A stretch of DNA of 38,854 nt. Origin: a virus. Location: positions 1-38,854 of IMG/VR virus record IMGVR_UViG_3300044623_000555; one strand, given 5' to 3'. The stretch's first letter is position 1. Each line of letters begins with the position of its first letter. A program made the position numbers and the translations under genes. Under the pieces are notes generated by a model that saw nothing but the letters and a program-made list of their open reading frames with translations, made no database searches and was not told the origin of the DNA. Below, piece by piece: positions 1,400-38,854 of the stretch.

Positions 1400-1897
1400 A
1401 TGATAAACACACTTGAAAAGCCTACATGGAATGAGACATGGCAAATGATTCGCGGGTTGTGGTCTGAGTGGGAACCGACCCCGCAAACCACTAAGTGGTT
1501 GTGGGAAAGATGGATGCCGCTTCATCAAGACAAATTAATGGATGCTGTCAAGCAGCATCGAATGGAAGCCGCATCGGAAAAATCAAACCGACCAATATTT
1601 AATCGCATCAACGATCTATACATAGAGAGAACGGTTCAGCAGCAACTCGTTGTTCACACGCGAGTTGAGAAAGAAAAAATACAGCCGCTTTCTGACAGAG
1701 ATTTTAAGGAGTGGGACAAGTGGGCTGCAAAGGTCATGGCAACTGCAACCGCTGAAGAAATCAAAGCCGCTCAAGAGGGTGTTGGCTTGCTTTCAATAAG
1801 TACCGAACGAGTTCTTGCTATTGCGGTGGATTTGTACCGCGAAAAGAATCTCACAAAATCTAGGAAAATACCGCCCGCGCCGCTTGCCCCCCGGTAG
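1400..1897 (+). CDS. Small replication-like protein, possibly helicase-loader type
   Basis: 165 residues. The first half (about 8-75) follows the pattern W-x-E-x-W...L...W.P......W....M...D.L..AV..H......P.....I, which resembles the helical N-terminal domain of phage helicase loaders of the G39P type. The rest is charged and ends in a short Pro-rich tail. If right, it would recruit the host DnaB helicase, which fits a genome with no helicase, primase or polymerase of its own. The resemblance is by pattern only and is weak. The last 50 bases of the gene also form the upstream part of promoter module A, so coding and regulatory sequence overlap. No clear ribosome site precedes the ATG. Confidence 0.5.
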   Translation: MINTLEKPTWNETWQMIRGLWSEWEPTPQTTKWLWERWMPLHQDKLMDAVKQHRMEAASEKSNRPIFNRINDLYIERTVQQQLVVHTRVEKEKIQPLSDRDFKEWDKWAAKVMATATAEEIKAAQEGVGLLSISTERVLAIAVDLYREKNLTKSRKIPPAPLAPR

Positions 1898-1969
1898 ATC
1901 GGTGCTATACTCTATATGTAAGGCAAGATGCCTTACCCGACCCGCCGGACGCGGATACAGGAGACAGTC
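1846..1969 (+). promoter_or_regulatory. Promoter/leader module A
   Basis: Upstream boxes AATCTCACAA and TACCGCCCGC lie inside the end of the preceding gene. -35 TTGCCC (1884-1889), 16-nt spacer holding CCGGTAGATCGG (1891-1902), -10 TATACT (1906-1911). Hairpin 1 is GTAAGGC-AAGAT-GCCTTAC (1918-1936), starting right at the expected first transcribed base. Hairpin 2 is CCGC-CGGAC-GCGG (1942-1954). Ribosome site AGGAGAC (1959-1965), ATG at 1970. The ATG at 1928 in hairpin 1 is in frame with the gene but is probably not the start. Confidence 0.85.
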
Positions 1970-2215
1970 ATGGAAACCACAGAAATCATTTACGAAGTAA
2001 CCGGAACCAAAGCATCTTGGACACGCGGCGGCACAATGCGATTTGTAGACCAAAACATCAAATCAGTTTGGATTGCCCGCCGAATTGCAAATCAATCATG
2101 GACAGCAACCGTTTGGACAGTTGATCCGATCACAGGCAAGCGCGTTCGGTTTGAAAATCAAAAGCAAGCAAAAATCGCGTATGCCGAATTCCTAAAAACC
2201 AACAAGGCTGTTTGA
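1970..2215 (+). CDS. Hypothetical early protein, 81 aa
   Basis: The start at 1970 is chosen because it follows AGGAGAC, although the frame is open up to an ATG at 1928 in the leader. The protein is small, basic and rich in Trp, Thr and Arg, with alternating hydrophobic stretches in the middle (WIARRIANQSW, ATVWTVD) that suggest a small beta fold. I do not recognise a family. It is the first gene of the module A unit with the three following small genes, a position typical of early host-takeover proteins in phages; that role is inference. Confidence 0.7.
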   Translation: METTEIIYEVTGTKASWTRGGTMRFVDQNIKSVWIARRIANQSWTATVWTVDPITGKRVRFENQKQAKIAYAEFLKTNKAV

Positions 2216-2240
2216 CAAATTTAATACCAAGGAGATCAAA

Positions 2241-2543
2241 ATGCCAAGTCAAACACGCAAACACCGCCGCTCATACAAAAATGCCGTTCGAGTAATCAAC
2301 AAGCGTATTTCAAACCTAGCAAGCCGAATTGATTTGGTTGCTAGCAAAGTTTGCCCGTCTTACGGCATGTCGTGGAGCGAACCAATTAATTCTGCAGCGC
2401 ACGGCGCATATGGAGATGAGGTGCGCCAATGGGCATATGAATTGGCTTTGCTTCAGCGCAAACTGTGGAGCGCGGAGTATTTCCAACACACCACTCACAA
2501 GCAACGTCGCATTTGGGCAGCAGAAGAAGCGAGTGAATCATGA
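2241..2543 (+). CDS. Hypothetical early protein, 100 aa
   Basis: Ribosome site AAGGAG at about 2229-2234, 6 nt before the ATG. The N-terminus is strongly basic (SQTRKHRRSYKN), followed by mostly helical sequence rich in Leu, Ala and Trp. No known family recognised; the basic start could contact nucleic acid. The stop overlaps the next start (ATGA), so translation is likely coupled. Confidence 0.7.
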   Translation: MPSQTRKHRRSYKNAVRVINKRISNLASRIDLVASKVCPSYGMSWSEPINSAAHGAYGDEVRQWAYELALLQRKLWSAEYFQHTTHKQRRIWAAEEASES

Positions 2544-2743
2544 ACGACATTCAACTTGCAACCTTTAGAACAATTGCTGACGCAATGCTTGGCAGCAACC
2601 GCATTTGGAATTGGCACTCCGACATTGACCGATGGGCTCCGGCTCAACAGTTAATTAGCGTGACCGAAAAACAAGCCCGCGATTGGCAGCGAAAGTACGG
2701 TGGCACGATTACTTGCGACTTCAAGATTGAGGCAAAGCCATGA
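2540..2743 (+). CDS. Hypothetical small protein, 67 aa
   Basis: Starts in a 4-base ATGA overlap with the preceding gene and ends in another with the next. The sequence has several Trp and His residues in the middle (NRIWNWHSDIDRW). No family recognised. The unbroken chain of ATGA overlaps supports it as real. Confidence 0.65.
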   Translation: MNDIQLATFRTIADAMLGSNRIWNWHSDIDRWAPAQQLISVTEKQARDWQRKYGGTITCDFKIEAKP

Positions 2744-2949
2744 TCAGATTCAACACCAATGCAAGATTAAATGAACTCATGGCTAAGAAGTCTGATGCCA
2801 TGACGGTGTTTACAAACGCCAAGATTGCCCACAGCAAAGCCGTTGCGGCATTGCCTGAAACGGCAGCACTCGCAGAGGCTCAAATTAAATTCAACAAAGC
2901 ATCTGTAGAGATGTTGAATTACCACAAGAAATTGAATCCGGAGACATAA
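2740..2949 (+). CDS. Hypothetical small helical protein, 69 aa
   Basis: ATGA overlap with the preceding gene. It is rich in Ala, Lys and Asn and looks wholly helical, with heptad-like spacing of Leu, Ala and Val from about residue 10 to 65. It is the last gene before promoter module B. No family recognised. Confidence 0.65.
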   Translation: MIRFNTNARLNELMAKKSDAMTVFTNAKIAHSKAVAALPETAALAEAQIKFNKASVEMLNYHKKLNPET

Positions 2950-2950
2950 A

Positions 2951-3078
2951 AGAATCTCACAATCTTTCAATAATTACCGCCCGCCCCTCTTGCATACCGA
3001 TGAATCGGGGGTATACTACTAATGTAAAGCAAGATGCTTTGCCCGCGACCCCCGGACGGGGAACACAAGGAGACTGAT
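2951..3078 (+). promoter_or_regulatory. Promoter/leader module B
   Basis: Upstream AATCTCACAATCTTT and AATTACCGCCCGC boxes, -35 TTGCAT (2990-2995), 16-nt spacer with the perfect inverted repeat CCGAT-GA-ATCGG (2997-3008), -10 TATACT (3012-3017). Hairpin 1 is GTAAAGC-AAGAT-GCTTTGC (3024-3042). Hairpin 2 is CCCC-CGGAC-GGGG (3049-3061). Ribosome site AAGGAGA (3067-3073). Compared with module A, both stems have changed on both sides while the loops are the same. Confidence 0.87.
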
Positions 3079-3381
3079 ATGGCACAACTACAAATTACAC
3101 CCGCAGTACTAAGTCAAACCTATCGGGGCAAGCCCGGAAAATGCTGCTGCGGATGCAGCGGAAACTACTACGAAGATGCAAAGACAATGCAGCGGTGCAT
3201 TAACAAGGTTGCAAAGCACATTGCAAACGGAGGCGAGTATCAACTTGGCGGGACATATATGTCGGCTGACATTGGGAATGTCCAATACAACATTTACTTC
3301 AACGACAATTGGAATGTTGAAGAGTTAAATGGCGTAATCGCAGTATGCAAGTCAGTAGCCCGAATTACTTTTAATGACTAA
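3079..3381 (+). CDS. Cys-cluster small protein, 100 aa
   Basis: The start at 3079 follows AAGGAGA; an in-frame ATG at 3034 lies in the leader hairpin and is not preferred. Residues about 17-28 hold a compact Cys cluster (KCCCGCSGNY), with a further Cys in the following helix, so metal binding is possible. The rest is a small alpha/beta sequence rich in Asn, Gly and Tyr. I have the impression that this Cys cluster occurs in other phage hypothetical proteins but cannot name a family. First gene of the module B unit. Confidence 0.7.
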   Translation: MAQLQITPAVLSQTYRGKPGKCCCGCSGNYYEDAKTMQRCINKVAKHIANGGEYQLGGTYMSADIGNVQYNIYFNDNWNVEELNGVIAVCKSVARITFND

Positions 3382-3391
3382 GGAACCCACC

Positions 3392-3754
3392 ATGAGAACT
3401 CAAAAACAAATTTTTGAAACAATGACATTGCGATTAGCAACTGCTGAAGGATCAATTGCTGAAGGCAACATGGACAATTACAGGCGTGATGCTGCTGTAG
3501 ATACTGCCAATGCGTTTATCTCGTTTGCGTGTGCAATTGGCATCTTTACTGCGAAAGACAGACTTGAATGGTCAGGGCGCATTTTGATAGCGCGAAACTA
3601 TGCGACCATGCGAAGGTTTCAATTAATGAAAGAAGAATTGGAAAAGGAAACAGAAAATGCAGTCAAGATTTTGGCTGCAAGTCATAGCGTAATTTCACCC
3701 CGTGCAGATGCGACCCCCTCTTGGATGCAGGGTCTACCTGTAGAAATGGATTGA
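3392..3754 (+). CDS. Hypothetical helical protein, 120 aa
   Basis: The start at 3392 follows AAGGA at 3380-3384; an ATG at 3374 overlapping the previous gene is less likely. The predicted product is mostly helical, with a hydrophobic stretch (FISFACAIGIF, about residues 42-52) too short to be a clear membrane segment, then an Arg/Glu-rich helix. No family recognised. It sits between the Cys-cluster gene and the recombination genes. Confidence 0.65.
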   Translation: MRTQKQIFETMTLRLATAEGSIAEGNMDNYRRDAAVDTANAFISFACAIGIFTAKDRLEWSGRILIARNYATMRRFQLMKEELEKETENAVKILAASHSVISPRADATPSWMQGLPVEMD

Positions 3755-3758
3755 TGCC

Positions 3759-4055
3759 ATGTTGACAGAAGAAGAAAAGTTTGCGTTGAAGATGTATCAA
3801 AGGTTGGTACAGGAAGATCCAAGGGAGGTTTTCCGTGACATGAGAAAACAAATCTTGCGCGATTTTGAGTTTGGCTACAAAGCGGGATTTGAAGGAAAGT
3901 ACGAAACCCACAAACTTCTGTATCCCGAATATGTTTTGTTAAATGACCAAGATCGACAGAAATTGCACTTGATGATTTTGCAATCATTGCAAGCGGGCGC
4001 ACAGGCTTTTACGGCTATAAGATTGACAAATTTATTAAACACGAAAGCGGAGTAA
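3759..4055 (+). CDS. Hypothetical protein, 98 aa
   Basis: Begins 4 bases after the preceding stop. Predicted helical throughout, with an acidic and basic N-terminal half and a Leu-rich C-terminal half. It ends just before the ERF gene, whose ribosome site GGAG lies in its last codons, so the two are probably translated together. It could be an accessory to recombination by position only. Confidence 0.65.
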   Translation: MLTEEEKFALKMYQRLVQEDPREVFRDMRKQILRDFEFGYKAGFEGKYETHKLLYPEYVLLNDQDRQKLHLMILQSLQAGAQAFTAIRLTNLLNTKAE

Positions 4056-4057
4056 TC

Positions 4058-4837
4058 ATGCAACGAAGCGAAACGATTGGAACTATCGCAAGCGCGATGG
4101 CGAAAGCAAATTTGGAAATCAAGAACCCTGAACTAGACGGGATCAACCCGCATTACAAGAGCAGGTTTGCCACTCTTGCGGCTGTGTTGAATGCCGTGCG
4201 GTCACCACTAGCAAAGCAAGGGATCGCCGTTCTACAGCCCGTCACAATGGATGGGAACTTCGTAGCGGTCACTACGACCCTTGCACACTCAAGCGGTGAG
4301 TGGATCTCTGAAACCCTGTCGTACCCGCTACCTGACCGTAGCACGGTGCAGCAGATTGGCTCGACTGTTTCCTACCTTCGGAGGTATTCACTTATTAGTT
4401 TCTGCGGTCTAGTGGGTGAGGATGACGATGGGGACTCTGATCGCCAAGCCCCTACTGAAGATCGCAAGCCCTTCAAGCCACAGAATGCCCGTGGAGCCAC
4501 CCCGGTTCAGGCGAAGCCCCAAGCCGCCCCAACGGCTGAAACCGCGCCCAAAGCCAACCCTGCCCCGGCATCCGGGGTGGCGGACGCGTTCCCGGATGAT
4601 GGTGAGTTCGTAGTACGGGTCAACAAGGTTGTTCGCAGGAAAGGAAAGCCGACTGCAATATCGGTTACAAGCGAAGACCATGGTGCTTGTTATGCATCCA
4701 CGCTTGTAGACGGCTACGCGGATTACCTTGAAGACATTACAGGGGAATTGGTTACCCTTGGGTTGACCCGAAACGGTTTGATTCTTGAAATTACTCACAT
4801 CACAAAGCCTGAGACAGTATCTAAACTAGAATTCTAA
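4058..4837 (+). CDS. erf: ERF-family single-strand annealing protein
   Basis: 259 residues. The N-terminal about 125 residues carry the ERF pattern: H-Y-K-S-R-F-A near residue 32-38, alternating hydrophobic strands, then YLRRYSL (106-112) followed by the acidic EDDDGD (121-126) that closes the domain. A Pro/Ala-rich linker (about 135-190) leads to a small beta-rich C-terminal part. ERF proteins anneal single-stranded DNA during phage recombination and genome circularisation. Ribosome site GGAG precedes the ATG. The gene ends 36 bases before a strong terminator. The next gene is a nuclease, a common partner for annealing proteins. Confidence 0.9.
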   Translation: MQRSETIGTIASAMAKANLEIKNPELDGINPHYKSRFATLAAVLNAVRSPLAKQGIAVLQPVTMDGNFVAVTTTLAHSSGEWISETLSYPLPDRSTVQQIGSTVSYLRRYSLISFCGLVGEDDDGDSDRQAPTEDRKPFKPQNARGATPVQAKPQAAPTAETAPKANPAPASGVADAFPDDGEFVVRVNKVVRRKGKPTAISVTSEDHGACYASTLVDGYADYLEDITGELVTLGLTRNGLILEITHITKPETVSKLEF

Positions 4838-4873
4838 GCCATTGGCTACGCCCCACACGGGCGAGTCAGTCTC

Positions 4874-4925
4874 CCCCCGCGCATCCGGTTCCTAGACGGG
4901 TCACCCATGCGCGGGGGTTTTCTTT
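4874..4925 (+). terminator. Strong rho-independent terminator after erf
   Basis: An 11-pair stem, CCCCCGCGCAT (4874-4884) / ATGCGCGGGGG (4907-4917), followed by TTTTCTTT. The next gene starts at 4926, directly after the T-run, and its only plausible ribosome site is the G-run in the 3' arm of this stem. Confidence 0.9.
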
Positions 4926-5345
4926 ATGCGCCCGATCTACGAACAGCCACACAATCGCAAGATGCAGCGCGAGTTGATTGCATTGCTTCGGGCTGAACGC
5001 CCGGAGTTGCATTGCATTGAAACGGATCGCCTTGAGCCGTATGACTTTGAATTTAAGCGTGACGGGAAAGTCACCGCAATTGTGGAAGTAAAGGTTCGGC
5101 AACTTTCGTTTTACCGATTCCCCAACTACATGATTGCCGCAAAGAAGTCTGATAATCTTCGCAGACTGTCACGCGAAATGAAATGCGGAGCGCATTTGCT
5201 TGTTGGATTTCCTGATGCGGCTGCGCTGTTTACATTTACCGACCAAGTATTTCCACGCGCACAGGCAGGACGCAAAGACCGCAATGACAAACAAGACATA
5301 GAACCATGCGAGTTTATTCCGCTGTCATTGTTTAGAAGGCTGTAA
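4926..5345 (+). CDS. PD-(D/E)XK-like nuclease (Holliday resolvase / VRR-NUC type)
   Basis: 139 residues. Motif D40-(13)-E54-V-K56 within a strand-turn-strand (YDFEFKR ... TAIVEVKVR) fits the core of the PD-(D/E)XK nuclease fold; a conserved Lys pair follows at the AAKKSDNL helix. The length fits small phage resolvases or RecB-like exonucleases. It probably cuts DNA in the recombination pathway with ERF. It starts immediately after a terminator, so it may be expressed only when transcription reads through or from RNA where the hairpin opens. The alternative start at 4962 has no ribosome site. Confidence 0.65.
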   Translation: MRPIYEQPHNRKMQRELIALLRAERPELHCIETDRLEPYDFEFKRDGKVTAIVEVKVRQLSFYRFPNYMIAAKKSDNLRRLSREMKCGAHLLVGFPDAAALFTFTDQVFPRAQAGRKDRNDKQDIEPCEFIPLSLFRRL

Positions 5346-5346
5346 A

Positions 5347-5471
5347 AGAATCTCACAATCTTTTGAGAATTACCGCCCGCGCCCCTTGCACCCCGCCGGA
5401 TCGGTGCTATACTACTGATGTAAGGCAAGATGCTTTACCCGACCCGCCGGACGCGGACACAGGAGACACTC
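5347..5471 (+). promoter_or_regulatory. Promoter/leader module C
   Basis: Upstream AATCTCACAATCTTTT and AATTACCGCCCGC boxes, -35 TTGCAC (5386-5391), 16-nt spacer with CCGCCGGATCGG (5393-5404; right half-site kept, left half changed), -10 TATACT (5408-5413). Hairpin 1 is GTAAGGC-AAGAT-GCTTTAC (5420-5438). Hairpin 2 is CCGC-CGGAC-GCGG (5444-5456). AGGAGAC follows, with the ATG at 5472. Confidence 0.87.
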
Positions 5472-5846
5472 ATGACAAACAGCAACGACATCAAGACGGT
5501 TGATCTCATCCCATTACTCGTCCGCGACCACGCTTTCAAGTTCTCAGTCGTGTTTTGCGAATACGCAAACAACATGAACGACAAGACTTGGGACGATGTA
5601 ATGCAGGTGTTTGCCGACTTCAAAAAGTGGCTCGACAAGGACAAGAATCACAATGCAAATGAAGCGTATGTATTTAATGACGAAGGTGACACCGAGTATC
5701 GCGAATCAACAAGTGATCGGTTGCAGCGTTACATGGACAACCTCAAGGAATTTCATGGCTCAGAAGTGACATCGTGGTCAACAGTTGATGACATCGTTTC
5801 AATCCTAAACTCGCTTGGATGCTCAATCGCCGACCAAGCCTTTTGA
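5472..5846 (+). CDS. Hypothetical acidic protein, 124 aa
   Basis: The start at 5472 follows AGGAGAC at the end of module C; the upstream in-frame ATG at 5430 lies in the leader. The protein is acidic, rich in Asp and Asn, and looks alpha-helical. No family recognised. It is the first gene of a run of small genes up to the HTH-like gene. Confidence 0.7.
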   Translation: MTNSNDIKTVDLIPLLVRDHAFKFSVVFCEYANNMNDKTWDDVMQVFADFKKWLDKDKNHNANEAYVFNDEGDTEYRESTSDRLQRYMDNLKEFHGSEVTSWSTVDDIVSILNSLGCSIADQAF

Positions 5847-7108: not shown

Positions 7109-7678
7109 ATGGAAATCGAAGAAATTCTGATTGGCGATCTTATTGGTGACCCAAATAACGCACGGCGGCACAGCAGGTCAAACATTGAAGCCATTAAGGC
7201 AAGCCTTGAAGCCTTTGGTCAGCAAAAGCCAATCGTTGTTACCCATGACAATGTAGTTATTGCAGGTAACGGATTTCTTATGGCGGCGGCTGAACTTGGT
7301 TGGAAGACGATTGAGATCGTCCGAACATCCCTAACCAAGAAAACTGCTGCTGCATTTGCTATTGCAGACAACCGAACCGCTGAGTTGGCTGATTGGGATC
7401 TAGAAGCACTTCAGCGAGTTATTGATGAAATGCCAATGCCGCTCCGAATGGCATCGGGATGGAATGAATCTGAAATCGCAGACATTCTAAAAAAGGCTGC
7501 TAGCGCAGAGCATTACAAGCCAATCGTTACGCCTGATTTTGGCAACTCATTGGTTACTGCTAAGGATGTTGACCGTGCAAACAATGTGTTTGATGTTGCT
7601 AGGAGCGAGTCGTTAAAGGTTGGGATTTGCTGCCCGCGCTGCGGAGGGGAGTTTGAAATTGACGCTCCAAATCAATAA
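7109..7678 (+). CDS. ParB-like (ParB/Srx fold) protein with C-terminal Cys motif
   Basis: 189 residues. The N-terminal about 90 residues match the ParB/sulfiredoxin-like domain seen in phages: DPNNARRHS near 14-22, GQQKPIVV (37-44), IAGNGFLMAAAELGW (51-65) and ADNRTAE. A CCPRCG pair of Cys sits near the C-terminus, a possible zinc knuckle. Domains of this family bind or nick DNA or nucleotides and are often fused or adjacent to DNA methyltransferases in phages, as here. Ribosome site AAGGAAA precedes the ATG. The 3' end overlaps the methyltransferase gene by about 20 bases. Confidence 0.8.
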   Translation: MEIEEILIGDLIGDPNNARRHSRSNIEAIKASLEAFGQQKPIVVTHDNVVIAGNGFLMAAAELGWKTIEIVRTSLTKKTAAAFAIADNRTAELADWDLEALQRVIDEMPMPLRMASGWNESEIADILKKAASAEHYKPIVTPDFGNSLVTAKDVDRANNVFDVARSESLKVGICCPRCGGEFEIDAPNQ

Positions 7679-8471
7679 TTGGGACAGGCACTTTTATCTC
7701 GCAAAATGGATTGACGAAGCGCGATGGAAATACGCGGCATCTATGCCCAAGTTCCCTCACGAATATACCCTTCGTAAATGGAACAGCGATGCGGAGTTTG
7801 ATGACGCGGTAATGTTTATCCGCGAATTTGGGTATCCTCAAAAGTTCTACAAGTCAACCTATATGTATTTTGACTTTAACGGGTGGCATCATTGGTCTAT
7901 GGGTGCGCCCGTAAAAGACACCATTCTGATTAACCGTGGGATAAAAAAGTACAACACCGTCTATGACGAAATAGCAGCGTCTTATGACGGACTGTTTGCA
8001 GACCCCGAATCCAACAAAGAAACCAATGAAGTTCTTGAAATGATCGGCGCGGTTGACGGGCGCGTTTTAGATGTCGGATGTGGAACCGGGCTTTTGCTAG
8101 ACGGGTGCAAGGTGGGCGATTACACGGGCATTGACATATCAACAGGAATGCTTGATGTCTTGCGAAAGAAGCACCCCGATTCTTCAGGGAAGATTATGTG
8201 TTCGTCTTTTGAAGATTGCTACATGACCGGGTTTGACAAGATTGTCGCGCTGTTTGGGGTAGCCAATTACATCCCCGAAAAACATCTAGAACGCATCCCA
8301 ATGATGTTAAATCCCGGCGGGTCTGCATTTCTCATGTTTTACGGACCGGATTACAGCCCTGTTACATATTCTAAAACCGGAACCGTTGTGCCAAGCAACT
8401 CAGCCTACGAGCCCAAAGACGGCGATGTCCCGTACAACAATTACTTTATCCGCAAGATAACAGCCCAATGA
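7659..8471 (+). CDS. Class I SAM-dependent methyltransferase with extra N-terminal domain
   Basis: 270 residues from TTG 7659, chosen because GGAGGGG lies 9 nt upstream and the conserved-looking N-terminus begins here; a TTG at 7653 is also possible. Residues 1-95 form a separate domain (DRHFYLAKWID; YTLRKW; MGAPVKDTILINR) that I recall only as an uncharacterised phage domain. Residues about 97-250 are a Rossmann methyltransferase: motif I VLDVGCGTG (136-144), then the acidic DISTGML. The substrate is unknown. There is no DNA-methylase NPPY/DPPY motif, so the target may be a small molecule, RNA or protein instead of a DNA base. ATGA overlap with the next gene. Confidence 0.82.
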   Translation: MTLQINNWDRHFYLAKWIDEARWKYAASMPKFPHEYTLRKWNSDAEFDDAVMFIREFGYPQKFYKSTYMYFDFNGWHHWSMGAPVKDTILINRGIKKYNTVYDEIAASYDGLFADPESNKETNEVLEMIGAVDGRVLDVGCGTGLLLDGCKVGDYTGIDISTGMLDVLRKKHPDSSGKIMCSSFEDCYMTGFDKIVALFGVANYIPEKHLERIPMMLNPGGSAFLMFYGPDYSPVTYSKTGTVVPSNSAYEPKDGDVPYNNYFIRKITAQ

Positions 8472-9625
8472 AGATCTATTTAAAGCAAAATGTCTATGAC
8501 GCTGCGCTTGACAGGATTCGGTATTTGTTTGACGAGTTCCCAAATGTAGTCGTTGGATTCTCCGGCGGCAAAGACAGCACGGTAACCCTGCAATTGGCAT
8601 TAATAGTAGCGGAGGAGAAAAACAGGCTCCCGCTAAAGGTTATGTTCTTAGACCAAGAGGCTGAATGGGAATGCGTTATTGACTACATTCGATCCGTTAT
8701 GAACGATCCACGGGTTGAGCCTATGTGGGTGCAGGTTCCCTTCAAAATTGCCAACGCGACCTCTTCCGCTGAACCGTGGCTGCATTGTTGGGACGAAAGT
8801 TCTGAAAGCCAATGGATGCGACCCAAGGAGCCAAACTCCATCAAGGTCAACAAATACGGCACAGATCGCTTTGCAGCCATGTTTACCAAGTTTGCGGAGG
8901 TTGAGTTCCCGGACAGCCCAATGTGCTATCTAGGGGGAGTTCGATGCGAGGAATCAGTAAGCAGAATGGTTGGTCTGACCGCAGCCGCGACCTACAAGCA
9001 CATTACTTACGGCAAGTATCTAAACCGCAAGAAGCACCATTACACCTTTTACCCAATTTACGATTGGTCGTACACGGATGTTTGGAAGGCAATCCATTCT
9101 CACAAATGGACTTACTGCGAACTCTATGATGTCATGTTCCAATATGGGGTGGCTCCCCGTGATATGCGCGTGTCCAATGTAAACCACGAAACAGCAGTAA
9201 AGAGCCTGTATTACATGCAGGAGTTTGAACCGCTGACTTGGAACAAATTGACCAAGAGAATTGGCGGCATCAAAATGAGCGGTCAACTCAAAGGTGGTGC
9301 GTTTTCGGTAGTTAAATCGCTGCCTGATATGTTCTCGTCTTGGAAGGAATACCGGGATTTCCTGCGAGACAAACTATTAACAGACGCTGCTAAAGAGAAA
9401 ATGACGAAGATTTTTACCCGAATGGACGCTTCATATGACACTTACAACGACCATGACGATATGTACCGGGTGCAAATCAATGCCATCTTGGCAAACGATT
9501 ACGAGGGTACAAAGTTGAATAATTGGGAAAGATCGCCGATCCGTCACCTTTATCGCCGTATGAAACGCGACCCAAGCGTTGTTGCTTACACGGGCGCGTA
9601 CAAGGATGCACTCAATGCTAAATGA
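8468..9625 (+). CDS. PAPS-reductase-like PP-loop protein (IbrA-like)
   Basis: 385 residues. The PP-loop SGGKDS (32-37) follows a strand VVVGF and begins an ATP-pyrophosphatase domain of the phosphoadenosine phosphosulfate reductase family. Downstream LGGVRCEES and the IYDWSYTDVWK segment are typical of the longer phage and mobile-element branch that includes IbrA. The reaction is unknown; members activate a substrate with ATP and some relatives handle sulfur. It overlaps the methyltransferase (ATGA) and the following ParB-like gene by 11 bases. An IbrA-like gene followed by a ParB-like IbrB is a known pairing. Confidence 0.85.
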   Translation: MKIYLKQNVYDAALDRIRYLFDEFPNVVVGFSGGKDSTVTLQLALIVAEEKNRLPLKVMFLDQEAEWECVIDYIRSVMNDPRVEPMWVQVPFKIANATSSAEPWLHCWDESSESQWMRPKEPNSIKVNKYGTDRFAAMFTKFAEVEFPDSPMCYLGGVRCEESVSRMVGLTAAATYKHITYGKYLNRKKHHYTFYPIYDWSYTDVWKAIHSHKWTYCELYDVMFQYGVAPRDMRVSNVNHETAVKSLYYMQEFEPLTWNKLTKRIGGIKMSGQLKGGAFSVVKSLPDMFSSWKEYRDFLRDKLLTDAAKEKMTKIFTRMDASYDTYNDHDDMYRVQINAILANDYEGTKLNNWERSPIRHLYRRMKRDPSVVAYTGAYKDALNAK

Positions 9626-28846: not shown

Positions 28847-31800
28847 TGGAAGTCACCGTCATTGTCTCAAGTACAGGCGTAACGATTGAAGTCCCAAACG
28901 GAACGAATGGCATCGGCGTTCCTGCGGGCGGCATTACGGATCAAGTGTTGACAAAATTGTCTGACACTTCGTATGACACGGGTTGGGCTTATGTTTCCGG
29001 CTTGCCCGCAGGTGGCACAACAGGGCAAGCGTTATTGAAATACAGCAATACGGATTACCTTGCTGATTGGCAAACGATTCCGTTGCTTGGCAGCACAAAT
29101 ACTTTTACAGGCACAAACACTTTTACCGAAGCGACAGTCTTTGATGCGCCGGGTACAAGTTTTGGTTCCTTGAGTGACATATCTGTTTACAGTACCTCTC
29201 TTGTGTTGCAAATGGGGCTTGTTACTCCTCCTGATGGTTATGTGCTGACATCATCAGAATTAGACGGAACTGCTGTTTGGGCTCCTCCTTTTTCTCCTGA
29301 GCCCGGTCCACCAACCGGAGCGGCGGGTGGTGATCTAAGCGGCGAGTACCCAAATCCAACTATTGCAGAAAACGCGGTGACATATGACAAGATGCAAACA
29401 ACATCTGCGCCTTCGGTTTTAATTGGACGCGGGGAGCCAACCGCAGGAGAAATTCAAGAAATCGCGCTTGGCATAGGTTTGACAATGACGGGTACGACTA
29501 TTGATGTCACAGGCGGATCTGCGGAAGATTTGATTGTGATTTGCCGGAACAATTCAGGAGTCACTATTCCCAAGGGATCTGCGGTCAAAATTGATTCTGC
29601 TCAGGGTCAAAATCCGGTCATTACTCTTGCTAGAGCAAACGCATATTCAACATCTGATGCAGTTGGAATTACTAATGTTGCAATTTCAAACAACAGCAAC
29701 GGAGCCGTAGTTGTAAACGGATTGATGCGAAATATGAACACATCGGCGTATGTCGATGGTGACCATCTGTACCTATCAACAAGTGTAGCGGGCGCGTTTC
29801 AAATCACAGTTCCTGTGAAGCCGAACATTGTTGTTCAGGTTGGAACCGTAATTCACGCTCACCCCACGCAAGGCAAGATCCTTGTAGAGCCAATTATTCG
29901 TTCTGTTCCCGTGGCGTACATCTATGATTCTACAACTACGGGTGACGCGCTTCTTCAAGCCGCTACCGCGCCCGCAGCGCGAACAACGCTTGGATCAACA
30001 ACGACAGGTGACGCGTTATTCACTACAGCAAGCGCGGGAGCCGCAAGAACAACGCTTGGCTCAACAACGACAGGTGACGCGCTATTTATATCCGCTTCAG
30101 CGGGAACCGCACGGACTACGCTTGGATCTACGACTGTTGGTGATGCGTTGTTTATTACAGCGAACGCGGGAGCAGCAAGAACAACACTTGGTGCGACAGT
30201 AACGGGCAGTTCATTATTTACTACAACAAATGCGGGTACAGCGCGGACTACGCTTGGTTCAACAACCGTTGGTGATGCTGTATTTATCGCCTCCACAGCA
30301 TCAGCGGGCAGAACAGCACTCGGTGCTACAGTAACGGGCGATGCCTTGTTTGTTACCGCAAGTGCAGGGGCAGCGCGAACGACTCTTGGCTCAACAGTTA
30401 CGGGTGATGCGCTGTTTATTGCCACTTCCGCAGGGGCAGCACGGACAACGCTTGGATCTACGGCAACAGGTGACGCGCTGTTTATTACAGCGAACGCGGG
30501 GGCGGCAAGAACAACACTTGGTGCAACGGTCACGGGCAGTTCGTTATTCACTACAACAAATGCGGGTACGGCGCGGACTACGCTTGGATCTACGACTGTT
30601 GGTGATGCGTTGTTTATTGCAACTGACGCTCCCGCAGCAAGAACAACGCTTGGTGCAACGACAACAGGTAGTTCTCTGTTTACGGCAGCAACTGCTCCCG
30701 CAGCGCGGACAACACTTGGATCAACGACTGTTGGCGATGCCGTATTTATCGCCGCTACAACATCGGCAGGTCGAACAGCACTTGGCTCAACGGTTACAGG
30801 TGACGCGCTGTTTATCGCTGCAAACGCAGGAGCAGCGCGGACAACGCTTGGCTCAACAGTTACGGGCGACGCGCTGTTTACTGCTACTTCCGCCCCCGCA
30901 GCGCGGACAACACTTGGATCAACGACTGTTGGCGATGCGGTATTTACTGCGGTTAATGCAGCGGCAGCGCGAACCGCGATTGGGTTGACGCAAAGTGTCG
31001 ATGTGCAGACCTTTGACAGTAGCGGCACATGGACTAAGCCCGTCGGGGCTGTGAGTACAACTATTCAACTCTGTGGCGGTGGCTGCGGTGCTAACGCAAG
31101 TTCAAATGCGGCGGGTAGTACTGGTGGCGGAGCGGGTGAGCCGTTTTTGATTACTGTGATTTCGGCGACATTAGGCGCAACTGAAGCGGTTGAAATCGGA
31201 GCAGGTGGACTTGGTGGCACAAATGACGGCGTAATTAATACTAACGGAAGTTTTGGAAACACAACTACTTTTAATAAGTTCTTTGCTTTTAAAGGAGGTC
31301 ATGGTCTTTCCGCTTCTCAGCGTCAGGCTTTGAAACAAACGACTCCCCAAAGTGGACCCGGGATTTACGGCTCAGGAGGCGATCAAGGTGCTGCGGGATA
31401 CATCAATCCGCTTGGTGCGGGAGGTGGTGGTGGCGGTGCGAGTGCAGTAAATGGAGCGGGTGGAACGGGTGGCAGTTCAAGTGCTACTCGACCAATTAAT
31501 TACGGATTTCCATCAATAATTGCTTCTCAAGGTGGTGGCGCGACCGGAGGAGCAACAGGAAATCCGGGAGCAAATGGTTCTAACGGAGTGATTGACGCGA
31601 ATGGATTTGGGTCAGGCGCAGGCGGCGGCGGTGGCGCAGCAACGGGATTTAACAACGCACTCGGCGGCAACGGTGGTAATGGTGTTCGTGGCTCAGGTGG
31701 CGGCGGTGCTGGTCGAGGTGGAACATTATCAATTGGAGGCGCATCAGGCGGCAATGGTGGCGATGGGTTCGCAATTATTACAACGGTGTGCTACTCATGA
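28846..31800 (+). CDS. Tail fibre with 16-unit repeat and glycine-rich tip
   Basis: 984 residues. N-terminal fibre part with G-x-x-G-Q-A-L-L repeats (about 45-80) and GGDLSGEYPNPT (about 163-174), a classic fibre motif; a beta domain (about 220-345); then a 22-residue repeat array (363-714), TTVGDALFITANAGAARTTL as typical unit; then TWTKPVGAVSTTIQL and a Gly-rich end (about 735-984) with long G/A/S/N runs, ending in CYS. Gly-rich tips like this bind host surface receptors in some phages. The true start is 28846, not an upstream in-frame ATG at 28771. Confidence 0.85.
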   Translation: MEVTVIVSSTGVTIEVPNGTNGIGVPAGGITDQVLTKLSDTSYDTGWAYVSGLPAGGTTGQALLKYSNTDYLADWQTIPLLGSTNTFTGTNTFTEATVFDAPGTSFGSLSDISVYSTSLVLQMGLVTPPDGYVLTSSELDGTAVWAPPFSPEPGPPTGAAGGDLSGEYPNPTIAENAVTYDKMQTTSAPSVLIGRGEPTAGEIQEIALGIGLTMTGTTIDVTGGSAEDLIVICRNNSGVTIPKGSAVKIDSAQGQNPVITLARANAYSTSDAVGITNVAISNNSNGAVVVNGLMRNMNTSAYVDGDHLYLSTSVAGAFQITVPVKPNIVVQVGTVIHAHPTQGKILVEPIIRSVPVAYIYDSTTTGDALLQAATAPAARTTLGSTTTGDALFTTASAGAARTTLGSTTTGDALFISASAGTARTTLGSTTVGDALFITANAGAARTTLGATVTGSSLFTTTNAGTARTTLGSTTVGDAVFIASTASAGRTALGATVTGDALFVTASAGAARTTLGSTVTGDALFIATSAGAARTTLGSTATGDALFITANAGAARTTLGATVTGSSLFTTTNAGTARTTLGSTTVGDALFIATDAPAARTTLGATTTGSSLFTAATAPAARTTLGSTTVGDAVFIAATTSAGRTALGSTVTGDALFIAANAGAARTTLGSTVTGDALFTATSAPAARTTLGSTTVGDAVFTAVNAAAARTAIGLTQSVDVQTFDSSGTWTKPVGAVSTTIQLCGGGCGANASSNAAGSTGGGAGEPFLITVISATLGATEAVEIGAGGLGGTNDGVINTNGSFGNTTTFNKFFAFKGGHGLSASQRQALKQTTPQSGPGIYGSGGDQGAAGYINPLGAGGGGGGASAVNGAGGTGGSSSATRPINYGFPSIIASQGGGATGGATGNPGANGSNGVIDANGFGSGAGGGGGAATGFNNALGGNGGNGVRGSGGGGAGRGGTLSIGGASGGNGGDGFAIITTVCYS
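29932..30987 (+). repeat. Minisatellite in fibre gene: 16 units of 66 bp
   Basis: Exactly 16 units of 22 codons, each of the form T-x-x-G-(D/S)-(A/S)-(L/V)-F...A-R-T-(T/A)-(L/I)-G. Units 4-5 and 9-10 are nearly the same, and units 5-8 resemble 12-15, so the array has grown by block duplications as well as single-unit steps. Confidence 0.9.
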
Positions 31801-36626: not shown

Positions 36627-36925
36627 TTTAGTTGCCATACTTTGATCATTCGTCCGTGTGTTGATGCCCTTGATGAAGAAATTACTTTGCCCGTCCAACT
36701 AAATCCATTGAATACGCTGCCCGCAGCGTTTTTTAACTCAGAATAATTTAACCCGGATGCTTCCATGTCTCGCGCAACATCATCTGATGTCACTTGCCCA
36801 AGCGTGTGTGCTATTCGTTTTGCTGACTCTTGAGCAAGTTTGAGCAGTTCTTGTCTTGCGCCCGCCGCAAGATTCATTCCGTAGTCTTTGCGCCGTTGCG
36901 CTTCTGCGTGGTCAAAGAGTTCCAT
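36623..36925 (-). CDS. Winged-helix-like phage protein, 100 aa
   Basis: Start at 36925 after a strong AAGGAGG. TSDDVARDMEASG (about 45-57) then GSVFNGFSWTGKVISSSR and a final HGRMIKVWQL strand follow the pattern of small winged-helix proteins common in phages. Could bind DNA or regulate early genes. No named family. Confidence 0.6.
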   Translation of the reverse strand: MELFDHAEAQRRKDYGMNLAAGARQELLKLAQESAKRIAHTLGQVTSDDVARDMEASGLNYSELKNAAGSVFNGFSWTGKVISSSRASTHGRMIKVWQLK

Positions 36926-37175
36926 GATATTGTTCCTCCTTGGTTGGGATGTCGGCGTGTGGAACGCGCTTGATTCGCACGGCTGCGGGCGCGACAATTC
37001 GCATCCGCGCCTTGCGTAATTTTGATCCGCAGCGGCAAGCCTTCAAGCCGGAAGCCAACTCAATGTAGACCGGGATTGGTTCGCCGTCCGGGTTGTGTGC
37101 TAGAAGCATAATTGCTTCCGCTGAATCACATTCAACCCGTAGCGTCAAAACTAAGCATTTGTAGTCAGGGATCAT
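36912..37175 (-). CDS. Hypothetical protein with a Cys pair, 87 aa
   Basis: ATGA overlap with the gene before it and a 14-base overlap with the next. A CRC pair in the middle (KACRCGSK, about residues 46-53) and a basic run after it (KLRKARMRI). Function unknown. Confidence 0.6.
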   Translation of the reverse strand: MIPDYKCLVLTLRVECDSAEAIMLLAHNPDGEPIPVYIELASGLKACRCGSKLRKARMRIVAPAAVRIKRVPHADIPTKEEQYHGTL

Positions 37176-37516
37176 TTGCGCTCCATTTCTTCAATCAAAT
37201 CAACTGCCACAATTTCAGCGACCATTTTTGCCCAATACTCCTTGGCGGCTTCTACGGTCATATCAATCCACGGAGCGTTGGCATTGATTTGCCATTTTTG
37301 ATATCGCATACATCCCGTGCGGACGATAATTACGGCTGTAAGTTCCCACGACCATTTTGTCTTGCCGTCAACCGTCTTTTTAGCAGCCATTGCGGTTGGC
37401 TCGACAATTCCAATAAGCGAACCTTCGGGAGCGGAAGCGGCAGTCTCGTCAATCTTTTCAAGATCGCTTGCATTAATAGCGGCAGTCTCAATTTCAATTG
37501 CAAATCCATTAACCAT
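37172..37516 (-). CDS. Hypothetical protein, 114 aa
   Basis: Start chosen at ATG 37516; an in-frame TTG at 37546 would add ten residues but is inside the preceding gene. Mixed alpha/beta with WSWELTAVIIVRTGC in the middle and a helical C-terminus (AKEYWAKMVAEIVAVDLIEEME). No family recognised. Confidence 0.6.
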   Translation of the reverse strand: MVNGFAIEIETAAINASDLEKIDETAASAPEGSLIGIVEPTAMAAKKTVDGKTKWSWELTAVIIVRTGCMRYQKWQINANAPWIDMTVEAAKEYWAKMVAEIVAVDLIEEMERK

Positions 37517-38300: not shown

Positions 38301-38418
38301 ATCAGTCTCCTTGTGTTCCGCGTCCGGCGGTTCGGGCGGGGCATCTTGCTCCGCATATACATAATAGCACCGATTCGCCGGGGCGCAAGGGGGCGGGGCG
38401 GTAATTCCCCAAAGATTG
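38301..38418 (-). promoter_or_regulatory. Promoter/leader module D, drives the leftward operon
   Basis: Read on the minus strand: ACAATCTTT and GGAATTACCGCCCCGC boxes, -35 TTGCGC (38388-38383), 16-nt spacer with CCGGCGAATCGG (38381-38370), -10 TATTAT (38366-38361). Hairpin 1 is GCGGAGC-AAGAT-GCCCCGC (38354-38336, one A/C mismatch). Hairpin 2 is CCGC-CGGAC-GCGG (38330-38318). AAGGAGA, then ATG at 38300. Confidence 0.85.
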
Positions 38419-38525: not shown

Positions 38526-38837
38526 TCAGGCTTGCAGCACTAAATCAAATGCTTTTGCCGTGGCATCTGCAGTCGTGCCATCCCAACGGGCGTAGTTGAC
38601 TGCATTGGCATCCTTGCTTCGGATTGCTTGGTGGGCGCGGTAGTGTTGAATTGCGCTTGTCGCTGCATTCACCGCCGTCCATGCGGTCACACCGTATTTT
38701 GTGCTTTCGGTGTGCATTGTTTGATGGCAATGCGCCAAGAAGCGCAATCCTCTTTCACGCTTGCGCTCTTCCCAACCGTTGGTTGGATCTGTAACAAACT
38801 TTCCGTCAAGTGTTTCAAGAACATCTTGCCACAGTTG
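38526..38837 (-). CDS. DUF932-type protein, C-terminal part (overlaps the left-end copy)
   Basis: The C-terminal codons of the gene at 1-828. The frame enters from the repeated segment and ends at TGA 38528-38526. The part at 38712-38837 is the same sequence as 1-126. It ends in an Ala-rich helix (ATSAIQHYRAHQAI) and TAKAFDLVLQA. Joined to the left part it gives 337 residues. Confidence 0.85.
   Translation of the reverse strand, partial: QLWQDVLETLDGKFVTDPTNGWEERKRERGLRFLAHCHQTMHTESTKYGVTAWTAVNAATSAIQHYRAHQAIRSKDANAVNYARWDGTTADATAKAFDLVLQA
38712..38837. repeat. Terminal direct repeat, right copy
   Basis: Identical to bases 1-126; marks the point where the contig closes on itself. Confidence 0.93.
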
Positions 38838-38854
38838 ACGGAAAGTTTGTTACA
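38835..38854. repeat. Fold-back at the contig end
   Basis: The last 20 bases are the reverse complement of 79-98 (and of 38790-38809). The join lies at a shared TTG. This looks like a chimeric or template-switch end, not genome sequence. Confidence 0.85.

Follow-up and report, generated by a model that had tools for sequence, protein, structure and literature searches.

A covarying two-hairpin mRNA leader repeated before phage genes and a candidate CsrA-like partner protein

What reads a two-hairpin RNA leader that a virus places in front of several of its genes is the question raised by the window analysed here, the whole 38,854-nucleotide (38.9-kb) virus record IMGVR_UViG_3300044623_000555 of IMG/VR, which carries a 126-bp end repeat. 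Five copies of a promoter followed by this leader are found in its sequence, modules A, B and C on the plus strand and D and E on the minus strand. The order is the same in all five: a -35/-10 promoter, hairpin 1, a spacer CCGNN, hairpin 2, a Shine-Dalgarno (SD) sequence such as AGGAGA and a start codon (Table 1). The original prediction, made from the letters alone, quoted the stems of both hairpins and assigned the element to positions 1918-5456. All the quoted stems are present in the window. Of the five modules, only A, B and C fall within that interval; D and E are on the minus strand near the ends of a circular-looking contig. The reading favoured here, with a probability of about 0.5, is a phage-borne Csr-type translational regulon in which CsrA-like dimers would bridge the loop of hairpin 2 and the SD.

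Comparison of the sequences strongly supports that both hairpins are a covarying RNA element under selection. Of the 140 CGGA[ACT] sites found before an SD and a start codon in the window and its relatives, 69 have at least 4 bp of stem, versus 152 of 5843 elsewhere; the query itself accounts for part of the loop conservation in this count. A closing C-G pair, although not required, is present in 69 of 69. Among 33 distinct leaders aligned with MAFFT 95.2% of the cells are paired, a percentage flattered by the choice of leaders with at least five of the seven hairpin 1 pairs. Changes on both sides occur in 11 of the 12 pairs (shuffled mean 6.5), the covariation score is 0.615 versus 0.158 after shuffling, and pairing falls to 28-46% when the partner is shifted by 1-3 columns. 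A larger alignment, of 50 distinct leaders, was anchored on the CCG and the loop with no selection on hairpin 1. It starts from copies whose hairpin 2 has at least 4 bp, so that for this hairpin only the variety of pairs is informative; three copies in which hairpin 1 is not clear are left out, and one spacer base is repeated in some copies with a shorter spacer, which leaves the stems unaffected. Against a tree-based null, a home-made equivalent of R-scape, two stem pairs reach E<0.005 and three more 0.01-0.04. Stem pairs take the two top ranks among the column pairs and five of the first six; outside the stems, one pair in the SD region reached 0.03 as well. RNAalifold recovers both hairpins unaided. 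Single copies fold only mildly better than shuffled sequences (z -0.4 to -1.95), and the claim is therefore carried by comparative evidence and not by energy. Selection on the RNA, as originally proposed, is upheld by compensatory changes in both helices of homologues from many contigs, and a covariation test of the kind suggested at the time gives significant stem pairs in the larger alignment.

The relatives used in this comparison were gathered by TerL and DUF932 searches of viral contigs and by looser leader patterns. The exact leader pattern of the window has no further copy in viral contigs, no isolated phage was matched by DNA search, and the TerL of isolated phages is only ~25% identical; TerL relatives extend down to 44% identity. 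Seven contigs found by protein alone (G003-G007, G015 and G016) already hold the leader, whose presence is thus not an artefact of the pattern search; in the contigs found by pattern, loop conservation is partly imposed by the query. A covariance model gives 78 distinct matches at E<0.01 in phage contigs, from about 20 viral contigs, and no match in four phage contigs whose only shared feature is a distant DUF932. The one bacterial locus that it matched as well, L082 (E=0.0019), had come from the pattern search and looks like a chance match. The pattern scan of bacterial genomes yielded 11 matches without leader context, judged to be chance, and found no prophage and no host. A search of Rfam gave no match at the gathering score nor at E up to 1, and the RNA family is thus absent from that database. 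The leader is repeated before many genes, DUF932 being the commonest gene behind it (11 contigs). Two contigs have possible leaders with hairpin 1 only (L056 and L037, in G001 and G002), with loops AAGTT/GAGTT, behind a TATATT box.

Hairpin 1 begins exactly 6 nt after a TANNNT box in 36 of 54 leaders and 7 or 8 nt after it in 12 more, the background rate of TANNNT at one offset being 0.3%; the expectation that hairpin 1 opens the transcript agrees with these 36 copies, in which it begins at the +1 predicted from the -10 box. Most leader promoters of the window (A-E) and of its relatives have a palindrome of the CCCCG-N6-CGGGG or CCGA-N4-TCGG type between -35 and -10, which is likely an operator for a DNA-binding phage regulator. 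Hairpin 2 lies directly upstream of the SD and ends 12-18 nt before the start codon. Its loop GGA is separated from the GGA of the SD by 13 nt in 38 of 69 copies and by 13-18 nt in 63 of 69. Some hairpin 2 copies are promoterless and internal to operons, just before an SD (G005-G007 and G015), which ties hairpin 2 to translation and not to transcription. Between the previous gene and such promoterless copies (e.g., L044 1729-1785 and L046 13559-13615) there is a GC hairpin of very high stability, whose loop is ACGTT/GCGTT. A leader peptide starting at an ATG within hairpin 1 was considered and rejected: modules A, B and C preserve its frame relative to the gene, and D and E do not.

The loops are less rigid than the original prediction held. 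Constancy of AAGAT is limited to close relatives, and the hairpin 1 loops differ by group (AAGAT, AGGTC, ATGTC, ATGAC, AAGTC, GGGGC and others), usually with G at position 3. The hairpin 2 loops, which also show some variation in the family, are mostly CGGAC/CGGAT, with CGGAA in G003, and are closed by a C-G pair; CGGGA, CGGGT, CGGTT, CGGTA and CGAA are rare. With the exception of a few variant loops, the leaders thus display GGA in a hairpin loop, as a CsrA-type target does. In glgC, one CsrA dimer binds the GGA of a hairpin that lies just before the SD and reaches over to the site at the SD (PMC7652899), and spacing between CsrA sites ranges from 10 to 46 nt (PMC6028588), a range within which the second GGA, at the SD, is found here. 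The phage leaders share with CsrA/RsmA leaders of the glgC type the loop GGA just before an SD that offers a second site, and a small beta-strand protein with a key arginine (PMC7652899). They differ in their pentaloop, a C-G closed CGGAY instead of ANGGAN, in the repetition of one leader at many phage genes, and in the candidate regulator, which is phage-encoded and very divergent and, in the form found in the window, has a CRCG insertion.

This candidate belongs to a protein family present in most of these phages. A search with PF02599 gave sub-threshold matches in three relatives (best 19.3 bits versus a cut-off of 27), and iteration from these three small proteins led to a family in 15 contigs, the window included. 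Short forms of 63-68 amino acids (aa) are found in G002, G021, G023 and G024, and long forms with the inserted CRCG segment in the others; the alignment of long and short forms has 97% probability and E 4.7e-11. The profile of the short forms against sequences of the Protein Data Bank (PDB) ranks RsmF/RsmN, RsmE and CsrA first, with a best E of 0.0043. For the AlphaFold model of the G002 short form (pLDDT 79) the top 12 PDB matches of Foldseek are all CsrA/RsmA/RsmE, with rmsd of ~1.5-2.6 A in most and no competing family; their probability is 0.9 or more for most, and their E-values are weak (0.2 and above) because the chain is so short. VIA-align of the same model with the CsrA fold gives Z of 3.8-5.0, all above the unrelated rows. 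An arginine that aligns with R44 of CsrA is invariant in 15 of 15 family members; in RsmA, removal of this residue all but eliminates binding (PMC4066749). In an alignment with a hand-typed set of CsrA comparison sequences, column shuffles equalled or exceeded the real score in 0 of 100 cases for the short-form set and in 1 of 100 for the full set; the long form alone matches the same sequences weakly. The window protein is modelled with five strands and a helix (pLDDT 84), and its fold search gives TRAP at Z ~3. The family alignments are too divergent to scan viral contigs, a three-sequence alignment matching only two contigs already known, and no homology was detected between the genes upstream of the long and of the short forms. 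Sequence and models together suggest that these phages encode a distant CsrA-like family, the window protein being a candidate member of CsrA proper.

In eight contigs (G000, G004, G013, G014, G021, G023, G024 and G029) a leader precedes the CsrA-like gene on its strand, at ~0.4-1.2 kb in seven of them and at 3.7 kb in G021, and the gene may consequently belong to its own regulon. The CsrA-like gene of G006 has a promoter like those of the leaders in front of it (L043, upstream of 19136), with its predicted start on an ATG, which suggests a leaderless message.

The RNA is likely a new element with the mode of action of a Csr target, and the phage CsrA-like protein is its likely partner. Each module is a phage promoter with a two-hairpin mRNA leader behind it. 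Hairpin 1 opens the message and would probably shield it from 5'-end-dependent decay. Hairpin 2 displays GGA in a small loop immediately before the SD, and the SD has a GGA of its own at a distance that is usually 13 nt. The rest of the scheme, with its binding, dimerisation, timing and direction (repression and not activation), we infer. The phage's CsrA-like protein would act, presumably as a dimer, by placing one site on the hairpin 2 loop and the other on the SD and so blocking the 30S subunit, and the genes with these leaders would be turned down together once the protein accumulates. That the phages have a self-contained Csr system, with a divergent CsrA-like protein of shifted loop preference (CGGAY) and its own RNA operators before a regulon that includes its own operon, is a tentative extension with slightly less than an even chance; the shifted preference may perhaps also take in the NNGNY loops of hairpin 1.

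The link to Csr/Rsm regulators, speculative when first suggested, is strengthened by the phage CsrA-like family with its member in the window and by the glgC-like architecture, whereas the A of the canonical ANGGAN is missing and binding is putative. Among contigs of at least 17 kb, those with a CsrA-like gene have 0-8 matches to the covariance model (mean >4) and those without it have 1 each. Several observations weigh against the proposed regulon. This co-occurrence is small, with four contigs lacking the gene, and the p of 0.012 of its rank test counts related contigs as independent. G002 has a CsrA-like gene and no match to the covariance model, and G003, G008 and G009 have the leader with no CsrA-like gene detected, in a set of mostly incomplete contigs where the absence of a gene is weak evidence. 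The loop C-CGGAC-G is without the canonical A of the A(N)GGA hexaloop, CGGA[CTA] closed by C-G being found in 69 of 69 copies. A few hairpin 2 loops (CGGGT, CGGTT, CGGTA and CGAA) have no GGA, nor do 6 of 69 copies at the SD. The window protein alone has no CsrA match in Pfam or NCBIfam, the PF02599 cut-off not being reached, and its own model does not retrieve CsrA in the fold search.

The leader could also work with no dedicated regulator. Hairpin 1 would then guard the 5' end and hairpin 2 would fold up the stretch preceding the SD so that it stays clear of the SD, the whole acting as a strong constant translation leader. Such a role fits the start of hairpin 1 at the predicted +1, an SD that is mostly unpaired in predicted folds and the possible existence of leaders with a hairpin 1-like stem alone in G001/G002. 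It is nonetheless unlikely, as pure stability would not conserve the hairpin 2 loop while its stem changes freely, and CGGAC/T dominates across groups that otherwise share little. Reading of the GGA loops by the host CsrA/RsmA instead of a phage protein, by which the phage would tap a host signal, is improbable: a GGA hairpin loop beside the SD is the classic layout of host CsrA targets (PMC7652899), yet these phages carry their own CsrA-like gene and a loop without the A preferred by host CsrA. Little probability is likewise given to a loop conserved for another phage protein or for tertiary pairing of the spacer CCG with the loop CGG. The spacer CCG hardly varies and could base-pair with the CGG of the loop, and the rare loops CGGGA, CGGTT and CGGTA retain CGG, but the operon-internal copies keep CGGAC/T without a CCG spacer; as spacer and loop are both constant, covariation between them cannot be seen.

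In phage HK022, putRNA forms two stem-loops near the start of phage transcripts and put acts on RNA polymerase. The two hairpins that open phage transcripts here, repeated at several promoters, recall such an antiterminator, a very improbable identity given that the element is tied to the SD, occurs before it in copies without promoter, keeps a fixed spacing to the start codon and has no conserved stem sequence. That the inverted repeats are DNA operators and not RNA can practically be dismissed, for although they adjoin promoters with a separate spacer palindrome, their arms vary by paired changes around a conserved centre, the reverse of a DNA operator.

The Csr-type regulon, if confirmed, would add a second and unrelated answer to a task that T4 performs with RegA, the use of one translational repressor to shut off a group of phage messages. 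RegA is likewise one small phage protein that acts at the initiation regions of many phage mRNAs (PMC3014915). Its sites are A+U-rich without clear secondary structure (PMC3014915), in contrast to the G+C-rich covarying hairpins and the CsrA-like protein found here; the phage element is not an unstructured A+U-rich site at the AUG. CsrA-family genes on phage genomes are also known from a survey that found csrA alleles in 30 of 2517 phages by PSI-BLAST from E. coli CsrA (PMC7366521). Those alleles are closer to E. coli CsrA, and the available portion of that report describes no RNA operators on the phage's own genes (PMC7366521). CsrA genes on phages and plasmids have been catalogued, and loss-of-function experiments on their role there are stated to be still needed (PMC7366521). 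In the present case the phage genome carries the likely targets too, in the form of a repeated, covarying RNA, so that a single protein and a single 50-nt RNA would suffice for a direct test of the role.

Table 1. Leader modules and CsrA-like gene of the window, with positions in the 38,854-nucleotide record.
Feature	Position	Strand	Description
Module A promoter	1884-1911	+	-35 TTGCCC, 16-nt spacer with CCG-N6-CGG palindrome, -10 TATACT
Module A hairpin 1	1918-1936	+	GTAAGGC/GCCTTAC, loop AAGAT; begins at predicted +1
Module A hairpin 2	1942-1954	+	Stem CCGC/GCGG, loop CGGAC at 1946
Module A SD and start codon	1959-1972	+	AGGAGA; 81-aa ORF 1970-2215
Module B hairpin 1	3024-3042	+	GTAAAGC/GCTTTGC, loop AAGAT
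Module B hairpin 2	3049-3061	+	CCCC/GGGG, loop CGGAC at 3053; precedes 100-aa ORF 3079-3381
Module C hairpin 1	5420-5438	+	GTAAGGC/GCTTTAC, loop AAGAT
Module C hairpin 2	5444-5456	+	CCGC/GCGG, loop CGGAC at 5448; precedes 124-aa ORF 5472-5846
Module D	38354-38318	-	Hairpin 1 at 38354-38336, GCGGAGC/GCCCCGC, one A.C mismatch
Module D hairpin 2		-	CCGC-CGGAC-GCGG, loop at 38326
Module D downstream gene	38300-37917	-	127-aa ORF, first gene of operon with CsrA-like gene
Module E	882-844	-	Hairpin 1 at 882-865, TGCCG/CGGCA, 8-nt loop AAAGATTA
Module E hairpin 2		-	CCTGC-CGGAC-GCAGG, loop at 853
Module E downstream gene	start 828	-	DUF932; crosses contig end
CsrA-like protein, long form	36912-37175 (87 codons at 36915-37175)	-	87 aa; candidate trans-acting regulator
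Partner gene	37172-37516	-	114 aa; stop overlaps start of CsrA-like gene

The end repeat of the window is direct (1-126 and 38712-38837), and a 48-bp inverted copy of 79-126 is found at 38807-38854; from their sequence the ends look like those of a genome that is circular or terminally redundant, with a snap-back in the assembly. Genes for a ParB-like protein, a methyltransferase and a PAPS-reductase/DUF3440 protein follow one another at 7109-9622. Tandem 66-bp repeats occupy 29902-30993 within a 1009-aa ORF that has a weak tail-fibre match.

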